Source of the DNA: Sphingomonadales bacterium
Lineage (GTDB): Bacteria > Pseudomonadota > Alphaproteobacteria > Sphingomonadales > Sphingomonadaceae
Reading direction: 5' to 3'
DNA: 41,665 bases
NCBI GenBank assembly: GCA_025351405.1
Contig: JANXVZ010000039.1
Coordinates: 1-41,665, forward strand
Position numbers and translations under genes: made by a program. The notes below the pieces were generated by a model that was not told where the DNA came from, did not search any database, and saw nothing but the letters and a program-made list of their open reading frames with translations. Below, in pieces: positions 35,941-41,665 of this stretch (within the stretch, counting starts at the first letter, position 1; each line of letters opens with the position of its first letter).

Positions 35941-38900
35941 TCACACCGTGATCGCCATACCGCGGTAAATTCGGGCACGGTAACGCGAATCCTCGGCGTC
36001 GGGCAGCGGTGCGCCGGCCAGCAATACCGCGCGGGCAAAGCGCTTTACCTCCTCGTCATGCTCGGCCTGATTGCGCGGCTCCTCCGAACGAACGCGGCGC
36101 GTGAGGTTGATCTGGTTGACCGGCACATCATGGACGAGGCGCTCGTTCTCGACAGCGATGGTCGCAGTGAAAGCGTGCAATGTCGTCTTGCAGAAGTTGG
36201 CGAGCGCAAAGGCCGGACCGCCGGCCGCCGATCCCAATTGCCCCATCGGCACATCGGGCGAAACCAGCACCAACTGGCAACCATCGAACAGCGAAACCTT
36301 GCGGGCGACACGGAAATGATGGGTCAGGTTTGTTTCGACGACATCGGCAAAGCCGGCCGGGTCGAGCGGCCGCGGCCCATCGAACAGCGCATCGGGCAAC
36401 GGCTTGAAGGGCGTCGAAACGATGGTCGTCGGCTGGCCCCAGTTGCCGAGTGCAGCGTCGAGCGTCGCCTCGATTGCGTCACCGACGGCAAGCATCTCGA
36501 CACGTCCATCGCCGCTGCCACCGATGGCCTTGGCGAGCGCCTTGCCGCCGGCGGATGTATGCGTGAGCAGCACAACCCGCGCGACATTGCAGGCGAGGAA
36601 TTGCCGGGCGCTTTCCGCGAGATAATCGGTCAGGTGTTCGCCGATCAACCACACCGTCTTGCCGGCCATCTGGTCGAGGCGTTCCTGCTTGGGGCTGCCG
36701 AACAGTTCGCGCTCGGTTGTCGAGCGTTCCACGTTCAGGCCGCCTGATGGCATGAAGGTCTCACCCGAAACGGCGCGATCGGCGAGGAAGAACACCGTCG
36801 CCTGCGCAACATCGCCTTCGGTTGGCATCTTGCCGAGATGGAGCTGCGACAACACCCCATTCCTGACCTTGGCCGCCTCGCGGGCGATCTGGGCCGCGGG
36901 GAGCCATGGCTGGTCATCGGGCGGAATGCGCAGCAACCAATCGGTATCGGGCCGGGATTGCCAATCCGGGGCATTCAGAAAATAGCCGCCAAGCCGCAGT
37001 CGCCGCACCAGCTTTGCCGCCAGCACGGGCGTCAGCAGGAAACGATCCCAGCAGCAACTTTCGTCGCCCTCGCGCGCTGCCGCCAAAGCCAGTTCGCGCA
37101 GCTCGGCGGGCACCGACTTGTCGTGTGCGAGCTGGACCGTGTCGTTGCGGGCAAGGCGGGACAACAGGCCTTCGACCTTCTCGCCGCGCCGCAGTGCCTT
37201 GATGGTGGCGGCATGGACGGCATTCAACCGCTTGTTCTCGAGGATCAAACGTCCACGCCGTTCGAAAAGCCCGGGTTTGCCGCCCAGACCGGCGAGGCGG
37301 TCGCCATCGACGGGGCCGGGCGCGATGGCGTTGATCTGGATTTCAGGGCCGAGGTGTCGCGCCATGCTCTCCACCATGGCGCGCTGTCCGGATTTGGACA
37401 CGGCATAGTCGGTGCGGTTGGGATAGCTCACCGCCAGATATTTTTCGCCGCCGAAATAGCTGGACACATTGAGGATATAGCCGGACCCCTGCGCCTTCAT
37501 CATCGGCACGACCATGTGCATCAGGGCATAGTTGGAAATCAGATTGGCGTCCTGCGTACGCCGCCACGCCGCGACGTCCATATCGACGGCCATCTCCTCG
37601 GCACCCGAGACACCGGCATTGTTGATCAGATAGTCGATCCGGCCAAAGGCCTTGATGGTTTCATCGACAGCGCGTTGCAGGCTGGAGACATCGGCGACGT
37701 CGATATCGGCCAGCGTCCGCACCCGGCGCTCGACGCCCGAAAAGCCGACATCTTCAAGCTCGCCGACAATGCGTTCGCGCGCGGCCGACAGCTCGCTTTC
37801 GCGGCGCGCAACCATCATCACCTTTGCGCCCGCCAGCGCCAGCAATCGCGCCACCTGGCCGCCGATTCCCGCCGAACCGCCGGTGATCAGCGCCACCTTG
37901 CCGAGGTGCAGCCCGGTAAGGTTTTCAGACGTGCCGACCATGGCCTTGCGCGCGCCGGTGGCCTCGCCGATCGATTCGGGCAAATACAGGTTGATCGGCT
38001 TGATACGGCGTTCCTTCAGCAGGATCCGCGCCACCTGGCCTGCGGCAAACGACAGGCTTTCAGGCTCTGCATTGGTGTAGCGAACGATCTGGTTGCCCCA
38101 TTCCGCCTTGTCACGCCGCTTGTGTGCCAGCGCGACAACCGATTCATCGCGCCAGATGCGGATGAGTTCTTCCAGCGCGGCGCGCAGGACATTGGCATAG
38201 ACATCGCCGGCCCCGTCGCTGCCATTCGACACGAAGACAAAGCGCGGGTCGTGCAGCAGGCCCGGTGTTCGCGCCCAGTAGCGGCTGAGCGTCCTCGCCA
38301 CCGCGATATTCGCTTCCAGCTCGTCGTCGACAAAACGTTCGACGTCGGCATCGGGCGCATCCGCCAGCGCACCGCTGAAATAGCCCTGTGGCCGCGTTGG
38401 CAGCACCAGCGCACCGGTCAGGGGCGCATGGTCGGCGGTGAACTGCGCCAGCACGGCATCCATGACGACATGATCGTGCCGGGGGAAATGTTCGACATGG
38501 ATCCGCTCGGGGTTCGCCCCCAAACGCTCCCGCGCGGCATCGGCGCTGGCCTCGCTGTGAAAGCCGAGCAGGACCAGCGCCCCACAATCGGCGTGGACGC
38601 GCGCATAGGCGATGGCATCGTCGACCTGGCTGCCGGCCGAAACCAGCACGGCGAGGCCGGCGCCATCGATGGAACGCATCGTGGGCCGCGACAGATAGGT
38701 CGAACGCGATTCCTGGTGAACCGCCATGCCATGGGTCACCTCGAAATCATGGCCGCTGAATGCCGCCGATTCATCGGAGCCCAGGAACACGCAGGTGTTG
38801 GCGATATCGGCAGGCGTCGGAAAGGTCTTGGCTTTGCCGGCGCCATCCACGGCGCGTTCAAGCGCCATCAGGTCGAAGAAATGATTGGCAGTCGCCCCCG

Positions 38901-39603
38901 GCGCATCGCCGCGCAAGCCGTCCATGGCGGCAAAGACGTTGCGGATACGCTCGCTGGCGATTGGCCCCGGAAACAGCAAATTGACGCGGATCCCGTTGCC
39001 GCCAAGTTCCAGCGCCATCTCGCGCGACAAGGAATTGAGCGCCGCCTTGGGCACGGTATAGGCAGCGCGGGCGTAATATTCGGTGCGACTGAAGATTGTG
39101 GACACGTTGATGATCGAGCCACCGGGCCCCATCGAGGCCGCAGCCGCGCGCACCATGTTCCAGGCGACAACCATGATATTGCGCGCCGCGTCGCCCACGG
39201 TTTCCGTGTCGGTGCTGCCAGCGTCCCGCAGCGCCTTGAGGTCGGCGGCGCTGAGCGGCAGGTTGTCGAGTGGCTGTTTGGGTCCGGCGGAACCCGCGTT
39301 GTTGACAAGGATGTCGATATGCCCGTGCCTCGCCACGGCTTCGGCGACACCGGCGCGGACCGACTCCGCATTGGCCCCGTCGATGACGACAATGCTCGCC
39401 TGGCTGTCCGGCGCGCCGGTATCCGCGAGTGCCGCCAGACGCGCCGCCTCGGTGCGTTCGGGGTCGCGGCCGGACAGCACGACCGTTGCCCCTTCCTCGA
39501 GATAGCGGCGTACGATCGACTGGCCGAGGTTGCCCGCAGCGCCGGTTATCAGGGCGACCTTGCCGGCAAGGCGGGGCGGACGAGGAGAAGCGGTCTTTGC
39601 CAT
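35941..39603 (-). CDS. mcr: Bifunctional malonyl-CoA reductase
   Basis: 1220 residues, matching the roughly 1220 of the Chloroflexus enzyme. It is built from two SDR halves. The N-half has TGAAGNLG at 20-27 and Tyr182/Lys186 (YTVPK); by homology it reduces malonate semialdehyde to 3-hydroxypropionate. The C-half has TGGSAGIG from Thr574 and Tyr733/Lys737 (YAVSK), and reduces malonyl-CoA to malonate semialdehyde. Each half also has an extra degenerate SDR segment. Both cofactor and catalytic motifs look intact. The ATG at 39603 (MAKTASPRPP, preceded by GAAGG) is preferred over an in-frame start inside pcs. It begins 10 bases after the pcs stop. NADPH use is expected; cytosolic. Confidence 0.93.
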   Translation of the reverse strand: MAKTASPRPPRLAGKVALITGAAGNLGQSIVRRYLEEGATVVLSGRDPERTEAARLAALADTGAPDSQASIVVIDGANAESVRAGVAEAVARHGHIDILVNNAGSAGPKQPLDNLPLSAADLKALRDAGSTDTETVGDAARNIMVVAWNMVRAAAASMGPGGSIINVSTIFSRTEYYARAAYTVPKAALNSLSREMALELGGNGIRVNLLFPGPIASERIRNVFAAMDGLRGDAPGATANHFFDLMALERAVDGAGKAKTFPTPADIANTCVFLGSDESAAFSGHDFEVTHGMAVHQESRSTYLSRPTMRSIDGAGLAVLVSAGSQVDDAIAYARVHADCGALVLLGFHSEASADAARERLGANPERIHVEHFPRHDHVVMDAVLAQFTADHAPLTGALVLPTRPQGYFSGALADAPDADVERFVDDELEANIAVARTLSRYWARTPGLLHDPRFVFVSNGSDGAGDVYANVLRAALEELIRIWRDESVVALAHKRRDKAEWGNQIVRYTNAEPESLSFAAGQVARILLKERRIKPINLYLPESIGEATGARKAMVGTSENLTGLHLGKVALITGGSAGIGGQVARLLALAGAKVMMVARRESELSAARERIVGELEDVGFSGVERRVRTLADIDVADVSSLQRAVDETIKAFGRIDYLINNAGVSGAEEMAVDMDVAAWRRTQDANLISNYALMHMVVPMMKAQGSGYILNVSSYFGGEKYLAVSYPNRTDYAVSKSGQRAMVESMARHLGPEIQINAIAPGPVDGDRLAGLGGKPGLFERRGRLILENKRLNAVHAATIKALRRGEKVEGLLSRLARNDTVQLAHDKSVPAELRELALAAAREGDESCCWDRFLLTPVLAAKLVRRLRLGGYFLNAPDWQSRPDTDWLLRIPPDDQPWLPAAQIAREAAKVRNGVLSQLHLGKMPTEGDVAQATVFFLADRAVSGETFMPSGGLNVERSTTERELFGSPKQERLDQMAGKTVWLIGEHLTDYLAESARQFLACNVARVVLLTHTSAGGKALAKAIGGSGDGRVEMLAVGDAIEATLDAALGNWGQPTTIVSTPFKPLPDALFDGPRPLDPAGFADVVETNLTHHFRVARKVSLFDGCQLVLVSPDVPMGQLGSAAGGPAFALANFCKTTLHAFTATIAVENERLVHDVPVNQINLTRRVRSEEPRNQAEHDEEVKRFARAVLLAGAPLPDAEDSRYRARIYRGMAITV

Positions 39604-39613
39604 GGTCCGGCCT

Positions 39614-41665
39614 TCAATTTGCGTTTGCAGGTTGGGCGGCCGCGGCAGCCCAGGCTTCATAAAGCTCGTCGCGGCTGCGCAGGCCCGGTACGGGCAGCGC
39701 GTGGTTGACGATATAGGTCGCGCCGGAATGACGGTTGTCCCACATCGCCTGGTGCGCTTCGGGCAGATCCTGCCACGCCACCACCGTCGGCTCGGTGACG
39801 TCGAGCATTCCGGCCGCAACCATGTCGTTCATGCGCGTCACCTCATAGGCGTTGCACAGGTGCGTGCCGAGGATCTCCGCCGTCGGCATGATGATCCGCC
39901 GCTGCCGCGTCCAGACCTGGGGAGCGTAGAAATTGTAGCGCTGACCCGTCATGTCCTCGGCATAGACGACGCGGCCGGTGAAGGGTTTGACCAGCGCCGT
40001 TGTCACGCCGAGCGTGTCTTGCCCGGCACGTTCCAGAACGATATCGGGCGCACCCCGGGGGTTATCGGGCGAACGCAACAATTTCCCGACCGCCGAGCCA
40101 AACGGCTTCAGGGTCTTGTCCTGGAAATCGCGCACCGCCTCGCGGAACCGCTCGATATCGTCCCGCGCCACGGGCAGGCGCGGCATGGTATCGGGCCAAT
40201 CGAAGTTGGCGCCTTCGCGGCGCTTGATGTCCTCCAGGCTGACGACCCCCGCGACGGCGTCTTCGAAACCCAGCGACTGGATGAATTCGCGCTGGCCGTT
40301 GGTGGTCGTCACGACGACCGTCCGCGCCCCGATACCGCGTGCCGCCTCGATCATCTCCAGGCCCAGCGGATCGGCAAGCGCCGATGAATTGGGGCCGTAA
40401 AAAATCAGCACCGCCTCCCCGCCGCGTGCCCCCGCCTTGCGCAGCATTGCCTCGGGTGACGCCGCACCGGCCTTGCCCATGAAGCTCAGATGATACCCCG
40501 ATGATGCGCCATAGAACGCCAGCTTGCCGCCTTCCGCCAGCAACTGGAATGATCGCGGGAAGGATGTTTCACCAGCATGGCTGACGGCAAAGTCCGCCAG
40601 CTTGCCGTTGTTCAGGCGGCGGTACTCGTCCACCAGTCCCTGCCCTGCAGCTTCCCAGGCACGCGATGCGTCCGCACCATCGGGAACCGGAGTGTAGAGA
40701 CCGGCAAAGCGCGGATCGGTGCGGTCGATGGAGCCGACGGCCCCCTTCAATGCGACGAACTCGGCGCGGGCCGGGCTCGATACCAACCCGGTGACGTTGA
40801 GCCCGCTGGCCTTGGCGGACTTCAGCGCGTCCAGCCCGGTGCCGGTGGCGGAGCCTTCGATAAAGATGGAGCTGCCACCGGTGATCTGCAGCGTGGTGAA
40901 CAGGCAACGCACGATCGTACCAAGATTGAGGATGTAGCTGCCTGCCTGTTCCAGCGTCAGGTCCCCGGGCACGGCATGGAGCTGGGGCGCCTGCACGTTG
41001 AGGAATTGCGCATGGCTACCGGTCTTGGTTTCATAACCCTGGATTGAAAAGTCGGCGAACATCGGGTCGCGCCCTGCCGCCGGGCTGAGCAAGTCGGATG
41101 TTCCGGAATAGACCGCCACCAGGTCGCCGACTTTCAGCCGACCTTCCGACCGCGCTTCCGACCCAAGCGCTGCAATCAGCGCAAGGCCGCCAGACCCGGT
41201 GATCTGCACATCCTCCTCATGGCCATCGAACGGCGACACGGGGATTCCGGTCAGCGCCCAGATGTCGTTGAAATTGACCTCGGACGTCAGCAGATAGACC
41301 AATGCCTCGTTCGGCTCGGGCGTCGGCACCGGCACGATCAGTTCCCGCTCATGGCTGGCAGGCTGGCCGAAGCGGGGTGCCCCGGTATCGGCATCACGGG
41401 CAATGCCAAAGGCATATTGATGCCCCGGAATGGCCGTGACGCCGGGGAAAAACGCGGCACCGCGCGGCAATAGATCGCCGGCCGCCTCGAGACGCTCGGC
41501 GCGCGGGGCATGCTCGGCATCGATATAGACACCATCGCGGCGCACCGAGAGTGGCGGGCTTTTCTTGTCGAGAAATTCGCGGATGCCGGTCTTGCCGCCT
41601 TCGGGATCGACGACCGCCTCGGCGAACAATTGCGCCTCGCGTTCAAGCCCGGCGGCCATCCCCTG
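39614..41665 (-). CDS. pcs: Propionyl-CoA synthase, C-terminal part (partial at window edge)
   Basis: 683 residues are visible and the frame stays open at the right edge; the full Chloroflexus protein has about 1820. The first stretch (about 41540-41665) is the end of an enoyl-CoA hydratase domain: GLEREAQLFAEAVVDPE, then GKTGIREFLDKKSPP. The rest is an acryloyl-CoA reductase domain of the medium-chain reductase family, with EVNFNDIWALTG, the NADP-binding region around IFIEGSATGTGLDA (about 40810-40870) and the late HLCNAYEV block. The hydratase-reductase order is what distinguishes propionyl-CoA synthase from crotonyl-CoA reductase. The missing part should carry the acyl-CoA synthetase domain. 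It converts 3-hydroxypropionate to propionyl-CoA through sequestered acryloyl-CoA. Confidence 0.9.
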   Translation of the reverse strand, partial: QGMAAGLEREAQLFAEAVVDPEGGKTGIREFLDKKSPPLSVRRDGVYIDAEHAPRAERLEAAGDLLPRGAAFFPGVTAIPGHQYAFGIARDADTGAPRFGQPASHERELIVPVPTPEPNEALVYLLTSEVNFNDIWALTGIPVSPFDGHEEDVQITGSGGLALIAALGSEARSEGRLKVGDLVAVYSGTSDLLSPAAGRDPMFADFSIQGYETKTGSHAQFLNVQAPQLHAVPGDLTLEQAGSYILNLGTIVRCLFTTLQITGGSSIFIEGSATGTGLDALKSAKASGLNVTGLVSSPARAEFVALKGAVGSIDRTDPRFAGLYTPVPDGADASRAWEAAGQGLVDEYRRLNNGKLADFAVSHAGETSFPRSFQLLAEGGKLAFYGASSGYHLSFMGKAGAASPEAMLRKAGARGGEAVLIFYGPNSSALADPLGLEMIEAARGIGARTVVVTTTNGQREFIQSLGFEDAVAGVVSLEDIKRREGANFDWPDTMPRLPVARDDIERFREAVRDFQDKTLKPFGSAVGKLLRSPDNPRGAPDIVLERAGQDTLGVTTALVKPFTGRVVYAEDMTGQRYNFYAPQVWTRQRRIIMPTAEILGTHLCNAYEVTRMNDMVAAGMLDVTEPTVVAWQDLPEAHQAMWDNRHSGATYIVNHALPVPGLRSRDELYEAWAAAAAQPANAN

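Follow-up and report, generated by a model that had tools for sequence, protein, structure and literature searches.

Bifunctional malonyl-CoA reductase (MCR) and propionyl-CoA synthase (PCS) form the signature half of the 3-hydroxypropionate bicycle known from Chloroflexaceae. The closest described enzymes used here for comparison are those that we take to be the MCRs of Roseiflexus castenholzii (solved chain 8hi4) and Porphyrobacter dokdonensis (6k8s and 6k8v) and the PCS of Erythrobacter sp. NAP1 (6eqo). Aerobic anoxygenic phototrophs are regarded as heterotrophs assisted by light. Gene sets of the bicycle have been described for Gemmatimonadota and for Burkholderiales predicted to be photosynthetic (PMC9802188). 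Another study reports that, at the level of traits, anoxygenic photosynthesis is associated with the 3-hydroxypropionate cycle, and it lists a bin of Sandarakinorhabdus as possibly mixotrophic (PMC10239486). In Microcystis aggregates, the bicycle used by aerobic anoxygenic phototrophs is reported to be apparently incomplete (PMC11089705), and these steps have been pointed out as a possible means of replenishing the TCA cycle (PMC8307300). A genome-level count of pcs-mcr against bacteriochlorophyll (bch) genes was not found in the literature searched, which left most subscription journals out of reach. Here we analysed a pcs-mcr pair in a 41,665 bp window, the whole of contig C46 of a Sphingomonadales assembly (3.02 Mb, 48 contigs, 98% complete). 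Both enzymes have been described before, and so in part has their association with phototrophy; new are the genome counts and the test for an open cycle.

The mcr gene of the window (35,941 to 39,603, reverse strand) is complete, begins with ATG and encodes 1,220 amino acids. Residues 11-1220 of the protein align with 8hi4 (1154 bits), 8hjw aligns too, and with 6k8s and 6k8v the alignment is in two halves. The motif YxxRxxYxxxK is intact in both halves, as YYARAAYTVPK in the N-terminal half (residues 176-186; 39,046 to 39,078, reverse strand) and as YPNRTDYAVSK in the C-terminal half (residues 727-737; 37,393 to 37,425, reverse strand). The window protein thus has what marks a bifunctional MCR, alignment over both halves together with two such sites, and it resembles the presumed Porphyrobacter dokdonensis and Roseiflexus castenholzii enzymes in its near full-length alignment and in both motifs. 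The same two motifs are quoted for the Roseiflexus MCR in the accessible text of PMC10470521. In one set of 47 MCR rows, the N-terminal motif was present in all 47 and the C-terminal motif in 45; the two without it are both frameshifted. These genes belong to Sphingomonas psychrolutea (L117:10001-13659, 20 stops in the frame used) and to a bin from Gammaproteobacteria (L119:10001-13653, 17 such stops), and decay or sequencing error may be responsible. Judged from its sequence, the window mcr encodes an intact bifunctional malonyl-CoA reductase, and reduction of malonyl-CoA is predicted.

Only 10 bp (39,604 to 39,613, reverse strand) separate the mcr start codon from the stop codon of pcs (39,616-39,614). 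An earlier note on this DNA had claimed just this arrangement, a full-length bifunctional MCR 10 bases after pcs with both SDR active sites intact, and had read the pair as the signature half of the 3-hydroxypropionate bicycle; identity, order and intactness of the two genes all hold. The part of pcs in the window (39,614 to 41,665, reverse strand) is the 3´ part, cut by the contig end, and comprises the linker and the reductase domain; counted from an internal methionine it encodes 681 amino acids, of which residues 1-675 are collinear with 6eqo residues 1171-1844 (1100 bits). The alignment scores of MCR and PCS are so high that a chance likeness is excluded.

The upstream part of pcs is located by the contig end itself, since positions 41,371 to 41,665 overlap C31:1-295 with 285 of 295 bases identical and contig C31 repeats the initial 96 residues of the window's PCS at 99%. 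The remainder of the gene (G000:C31:2-3772, reverse strand) encodes 1,257 amino acids, aligns with 6eqo residues 26-1266 and contains the domains AMP-binding, AMP-binding_C and enoyl-CoA hydratase (ECH, residues 894-1086). The acyl-CoA synthetase domain, whose absence from the upstream part would have refuted the earlier note, is therefore present. The earlier note had also placed hydratase and reductase domains in the window; the reductase is there, whereas no Pfam match to enoyl-CoA hydratase was found in the window part of PCS (E up to 0.001) and the hydratase core sits on C31. Without the overlap the two parts amount to about 1,842 amino acids (lengths summed, parts unjoined) compared to 1,850 in 6eqo. 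From the overlapping contig ends we infer that synthetase, hydratase and reductase domains would lie in one PCS chain. In comparison with the presumed Erythrobacter sp. NAP1 enzyme, the two parts are collinear over residues 26-1844, the domain order is alike and no architectural difference was seen, but the gene is broken here over two contigs. Given the 285/295 identity, the break falls inside pcs at a site of small sequence variation. The 10 mismatches in this 295 bp overlap indicate that the assembly contains strain variation. The ligase domain of the Erythrobacter sp. NAP1 PCS has been used for activating 3-hydroxypropionate, according to the accessible part of PMC11599936.

The genes pufM, pufL, bchZ, bchY, bchX and bchC were found together on contig C23 of the window genome, each above its curated cut-off, which answers the earlier suggestion to look for photosynthesis genes. 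By gene content, the host is therefore an anoxygenic phototroph. Among the matches listed, the nearest MCR of a named genome comes from a metagenome bin whose title says no more than alphaproteobacterium (84% in the best segment), followed by those of Sandarakinorhabdus cyanobacteriorum, S. rubra and S. oryzae and of two bins (74-75%). The impression of a sphingomonad-like genome was thus correct, with Sandarakinorhabdus as the closest named kin, and as part of our best explanation the host is predicted to belong to this genus or close to it.

The pair was compared with phototrophy in 298 evenly drawn genomes of the window's family, using thresholds of E 1e-100 for MCR and E 1e-60 for PCS and taking PF00124 over its cut-off as type II reaction centre. 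MCR was found in 30 genomes and PCS in the identical 30, and reaction-centre genes in 55; a match in G118 (E 7e-4), which would be the 56th, lies below the family cut-off and was left uncounted. Reaction-centre genes are present in 28 of the 30 genomes with the pair versus 27 of the 268 without it (Fisher p 8e-22). Counted by genus, with a genus being positive if any drawn member is, the ratio is 10/11 with the pair versus 17/85 without (p 7e-6). Seven members of the window's own genus were drawn, six of which carry both the pair and reaction-centre genes and one (G252) neither. Genomes of Sandarakinorhabdus, Porphyrobacter, Erythrobacter and Blastomonas strains contain the pair as well. The earlier description of the pair as rare rather than unknown can be kept in its second half, and "rare" is better replaced by patchy and phototroph-linked. 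In 14 genomes chosen by eye, whose same-genus members are not independent, pair and photosynthesis genes share a contig and lie 45-214 kb apart in nine and more than 400 kb apart in five. In each of four genus g7 genomes (G006, G100, G162 and G211), two loci together give four reaction-centre matches rather than two, likely owing to a second puf copy.

Our best explanation, which we regard as probable, is that the operon-like pcs-mcr pair of this anoxygenic phototroph serves light-coupled co-assimilation of carbon, from acetyl-CoA and two CO2 to succinyl-CoA. It is favoured because of the near full-length alignments of MCR and PCS, the link between pair and phototrophy, and the genome's own pufLM and bchZYXC genes and methylmalonyl-CoA mutase family gene. 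The latter, which the earlier note had listed among the genes to be looked for, gives PF01642 and B12-binding matches and is split over the contig ends of C39 and C13; the PF01642 family also contains other acyl-CoA mutases. In the proposed route acetyl-CoA carboxylase would act before the pair. MCR would then reduce malonyl-CoA to 3-hydroxypropionate with two NADPH, and PCS would activate 3-hydroxypropionate with ATP and CoA, dehydrate it to acryloyl-CoA and reduce this with NADPH to propionyl-CoA, both reactions being established for the respective families. Propionyl-CoA carboxylase, a step as presumptive as the first carboxylation, and methylmalonyl-CoA mutase would follow. The net direction would probably be from acetyl-CoA, two bicarbonate, reductant and ATP to succinyl-CoA, photophosphorylation would pay for it, and its purpose would be CO2 co-assimilation and a sink for reductant rather than autotrophy.

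It might also be that the cell uses external 3-hydroxypropionate or acrylate, for instance from dimethylsulfoniopropionate (DMSP) or algal exudates, with PCS as the main enzyme and MCR recovering or balancing the pool. PCS alone would turn 3-hydroxypropionate into propionyl-CoA, a mutase family gene is at hand, and the available part of PMC9802188 proposes a non-autotrophic use of bicycle enzymes on organic substrates for Actinobacteriota. However, at the thresholds used every one of the 298 family genomes that has pcs also has mcr, and the pair tracks phototrophy, which substrate catabolism does not predict, so that we consider this use unlikely. Slightly less likely still is that the pair acts mainly as an electron sink under light, with the carbon gain being incidental. 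The link to phototrophy would fit such a sink, as would the three NADPH spent per acetyl-CoA by known stoichiometry, but aerobes can hand their electrons to oxygen, and 27 of the 55 reaction-centre-bearing relatives do without the pair. Sequence cannot separate a sink from co-assimilation.

Whether the bicycle is open or closed was addressed with the 2-methylfumaryl-CoA isomerase of a Burkholderiales mcr genome (G306) as query. Its homologue in Roseiflexus (G312) is 74% identical and scores 852 bits against a curated cut-off of 725, and in both genomes the gene adjoins HpcH/HpaI and MaoC-type genes. A search of 80 mcr genomes (30 sphingomonads and 50 further ones, E 1e-40) gave matches in 19, 13 of them with at least 60% identity (query genome included) and six with 45-49%. 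The 13 include Burkholderiales, Chloroflexales, Myxococcota and Rhodopila records, and homologues of mcl and mch lie near the isomerase in all five clusters read (G306, G312, G301, G315 and G336). In the window genome no isomerase match was obtained at E 1e-40, an absence that is not absolute in a genome 98% complete, and none of its six class III CoA-transferases exceeds about 32% identity to the three reference isomerases (blastp). None of the 30 sphingomonads has an isomerase with at least 60% identity, and five have homologues with 45-48%. The weak homologues scanned all remain under the cut-off of 725 (G020 with 336, G260 with 273 and G318 with 371 bits), and neither mcl nor mch was seen around those of G020, G214, G260 and G318 (tblastn at E 1e-8 for the first three); the G020 and G214 loci hold another CoA-transferase (33-35%).

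Since no 2-methylfumaryl-CoA isomerase was found, the bicycle looks open in the window genome, and the half-cycle to succinyl-CoA is likely the extent of the predicted route. Compared with the Chloroflexaceae bicycle, the mcr and pcs steps are alike and a mutase family gene is present, whereas the isomerase was not found here at the threshold used and an isocitrate lyase family match is present. That match (E 4e-19) is of a weakly matching kind; a gene of this kind in G022 scores as isocitrate lyase over the curated cut-off. A complete autotrophic bicycle as in Chloroflexus, with glyoxylate re-assimilation, is thus improbable for this host, even though both of its key enzymes are encoded and full sets occur in Burkholderiales with predicted photosynthesis (PMC9802188, available part).

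The link to phototrophy was also found in a second family, 140 genomes around HTCC2080 (G326), whose mcr-bearing records are mostly titled Halieaceae. MCR is present in 46 of these genomes and a BchZ-profile match in 62; such a match occurs in 44 of the 46 with MCR versus 18 of the 94 without (p 2e-19). Nine of the 62 matches are weak, as BchB gives them, three being confirmed as BchB and six unchecked, and for BchZ alone the counts are 38/46 with MCR versus 15/94 without (p 2e-14). For other phyla we used named mcr loci, the best 80 of 538 confirmed stretches, of which 75 (L051-L125) were taken as MCR; the bch test covered the genomes of 50 of these 75, with 25 sphingomonad-looking ones omitted. 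A bch gene was found in 45 of these 50 further mcr genomes, namely BchZ over the cut-off in 34, below the cut-off but long or fragmentary in seven, and only BchB (confirmed) in four. Without the 13 genomes shared with the second family, the count is 32/37. Among the bch-positive mcr records are ones titled Chloroflexales, Thermochlorobacter, Chlorobiales, Chloracidobacterium, Myxococcota, Gemmatimonadaceae and Burkholderiales. A record titled as a Klebsiella pneumoniae metagenome-assembled genome (L077) has mcr, and its genome a BchZ gene; this bin is most likely misnamed.

On one and the same strand, mcr directly follows pcs in 56 of the 75 named loci (11-316 bp from match to match) and in 27 of 29 loci from the window's family; the two sets have some loci in common. 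This order spans sphingomonads, Halieaceae and Myxococcota. Seven loci (L085, L086, L089, L092, L093, L109 and L115), titled as Chlorobiota kin, Chloracidobacterium and two Chloroflexales, have mcr without pcs in their flanks, and pcs may sit elsewhere. In an MCR tree of 47 rows, made by a quick method with no mixture model and with the frameshifted L117 and L119 on long branches, betaproteobacterial records stand beside those of sphingomonads, and records of Myxococcota fall among the gammaproteobacterial MCRs. These placements suggest transfer, if the bins are clean. Spread by plasmids was considered and rejected, MCR being unmatched in 72,556 plasmid records (E 1e-50). We would put at about even odds a reading in which pcs-mcr is an accessory module of bacteriochlorophyll phototrophy that has spread horizontally across phyla. 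It would be an open half-cycle, paid for by light, through which photoheterotrophs make C4 units out of acetyl-CoA and two CO2. Lineages that use light would keep it, those that lose their photosynthesis genes would lose it too, and only some would have completed it to autotrophy.

Several observations weigh against the co-assimilation role. Two family genomes, G022 (67% complete) and G190 (88% complete), have the pair without reaction-centre genes. Nor is the pair a requirement for phototrophy, since it is missing from 27 of the 55 family genomes with reaction-centre genes. Two genomes of the second family (G386 and G408) have mcr and no bch match, as do five of the 50 further mcr genomes (G313, G321, G341, G342 and G346, whose MCR in the case of G346 has an identity of just 33%). 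All association counts ignore common descent, and some bins might be mixed or lack genes. No pcs was seen beside mcr in 17 of the 75 named loci, in flanks that are short in several, and two (L087 and L124) have the reverse order; in the Roseiflexus bin L087 mcr comes first and then pcs, whereas in the window pcs precedes mcr. The mutase failed as a discriminator, since PF01642 is found almost everywhere and does not set the groups apart (77/80 in total, made up of 29 of 30 with the pair, 27 of 27 that have reaction-centre genes but no pair, and 21 of 23 others), and G219 (99% complete) has pair and reaction-centre genes with no PF01642 match, so that propionyl-CoA may go elsewhere. Ten proteins scanned around the mutase pieces included no carboxylase, and no genome-wide search for propionyl-CoA carboxylase was made. 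The accessible text of PMC11089705 gives propionyl-CoA carboxylase as the sole bicycle marker undetected in phototroph-rich Microcystis communities. The isocitrate lyase family (PF00463) is matched in 257 of the 298 family genomes and in 29 of the 30 with the pair, the exception being G256 (82% complete). There is therefore no clear anaplerotic gap, and the pair as a simple replacement of isocitrate lyase was rejected, as the absence of the lyase expected in that case is not seen.

Next to pcs, contig C31 carries a polysaccharide cluster with exosortase V (L012:5191-11834), where neighbouring genes score as a WcaJ-type sugar transferase and as exosortase V. The six Sandarakinorhabdus-like loci L051-L056, of which L052, L053 and L056 are records named Sandarakinorhabdus, likewise combine the pair with an exosortase-type polysaccharide cluster, at least one such gene adjoining pcs in 6/6, and their mcr is 74-84% identical to that of the window (best segment). 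No polysaccharide-cluster gene was matched beside pcs in the named loci L057-L125 (E 1e-15).

The pair bears on how much CO2 aerobic anoxygenic phototrophs build in and by which route. Since the module is mostly found with photosynthesis genes in the genomes tested and is present in strain genomes, its role is open to a direct genetic and isotope test. If the reading as an accessory module is true, photoheterotrophs would build C4 units at the expense of light, and autotrophy would be reached in some lineages only.

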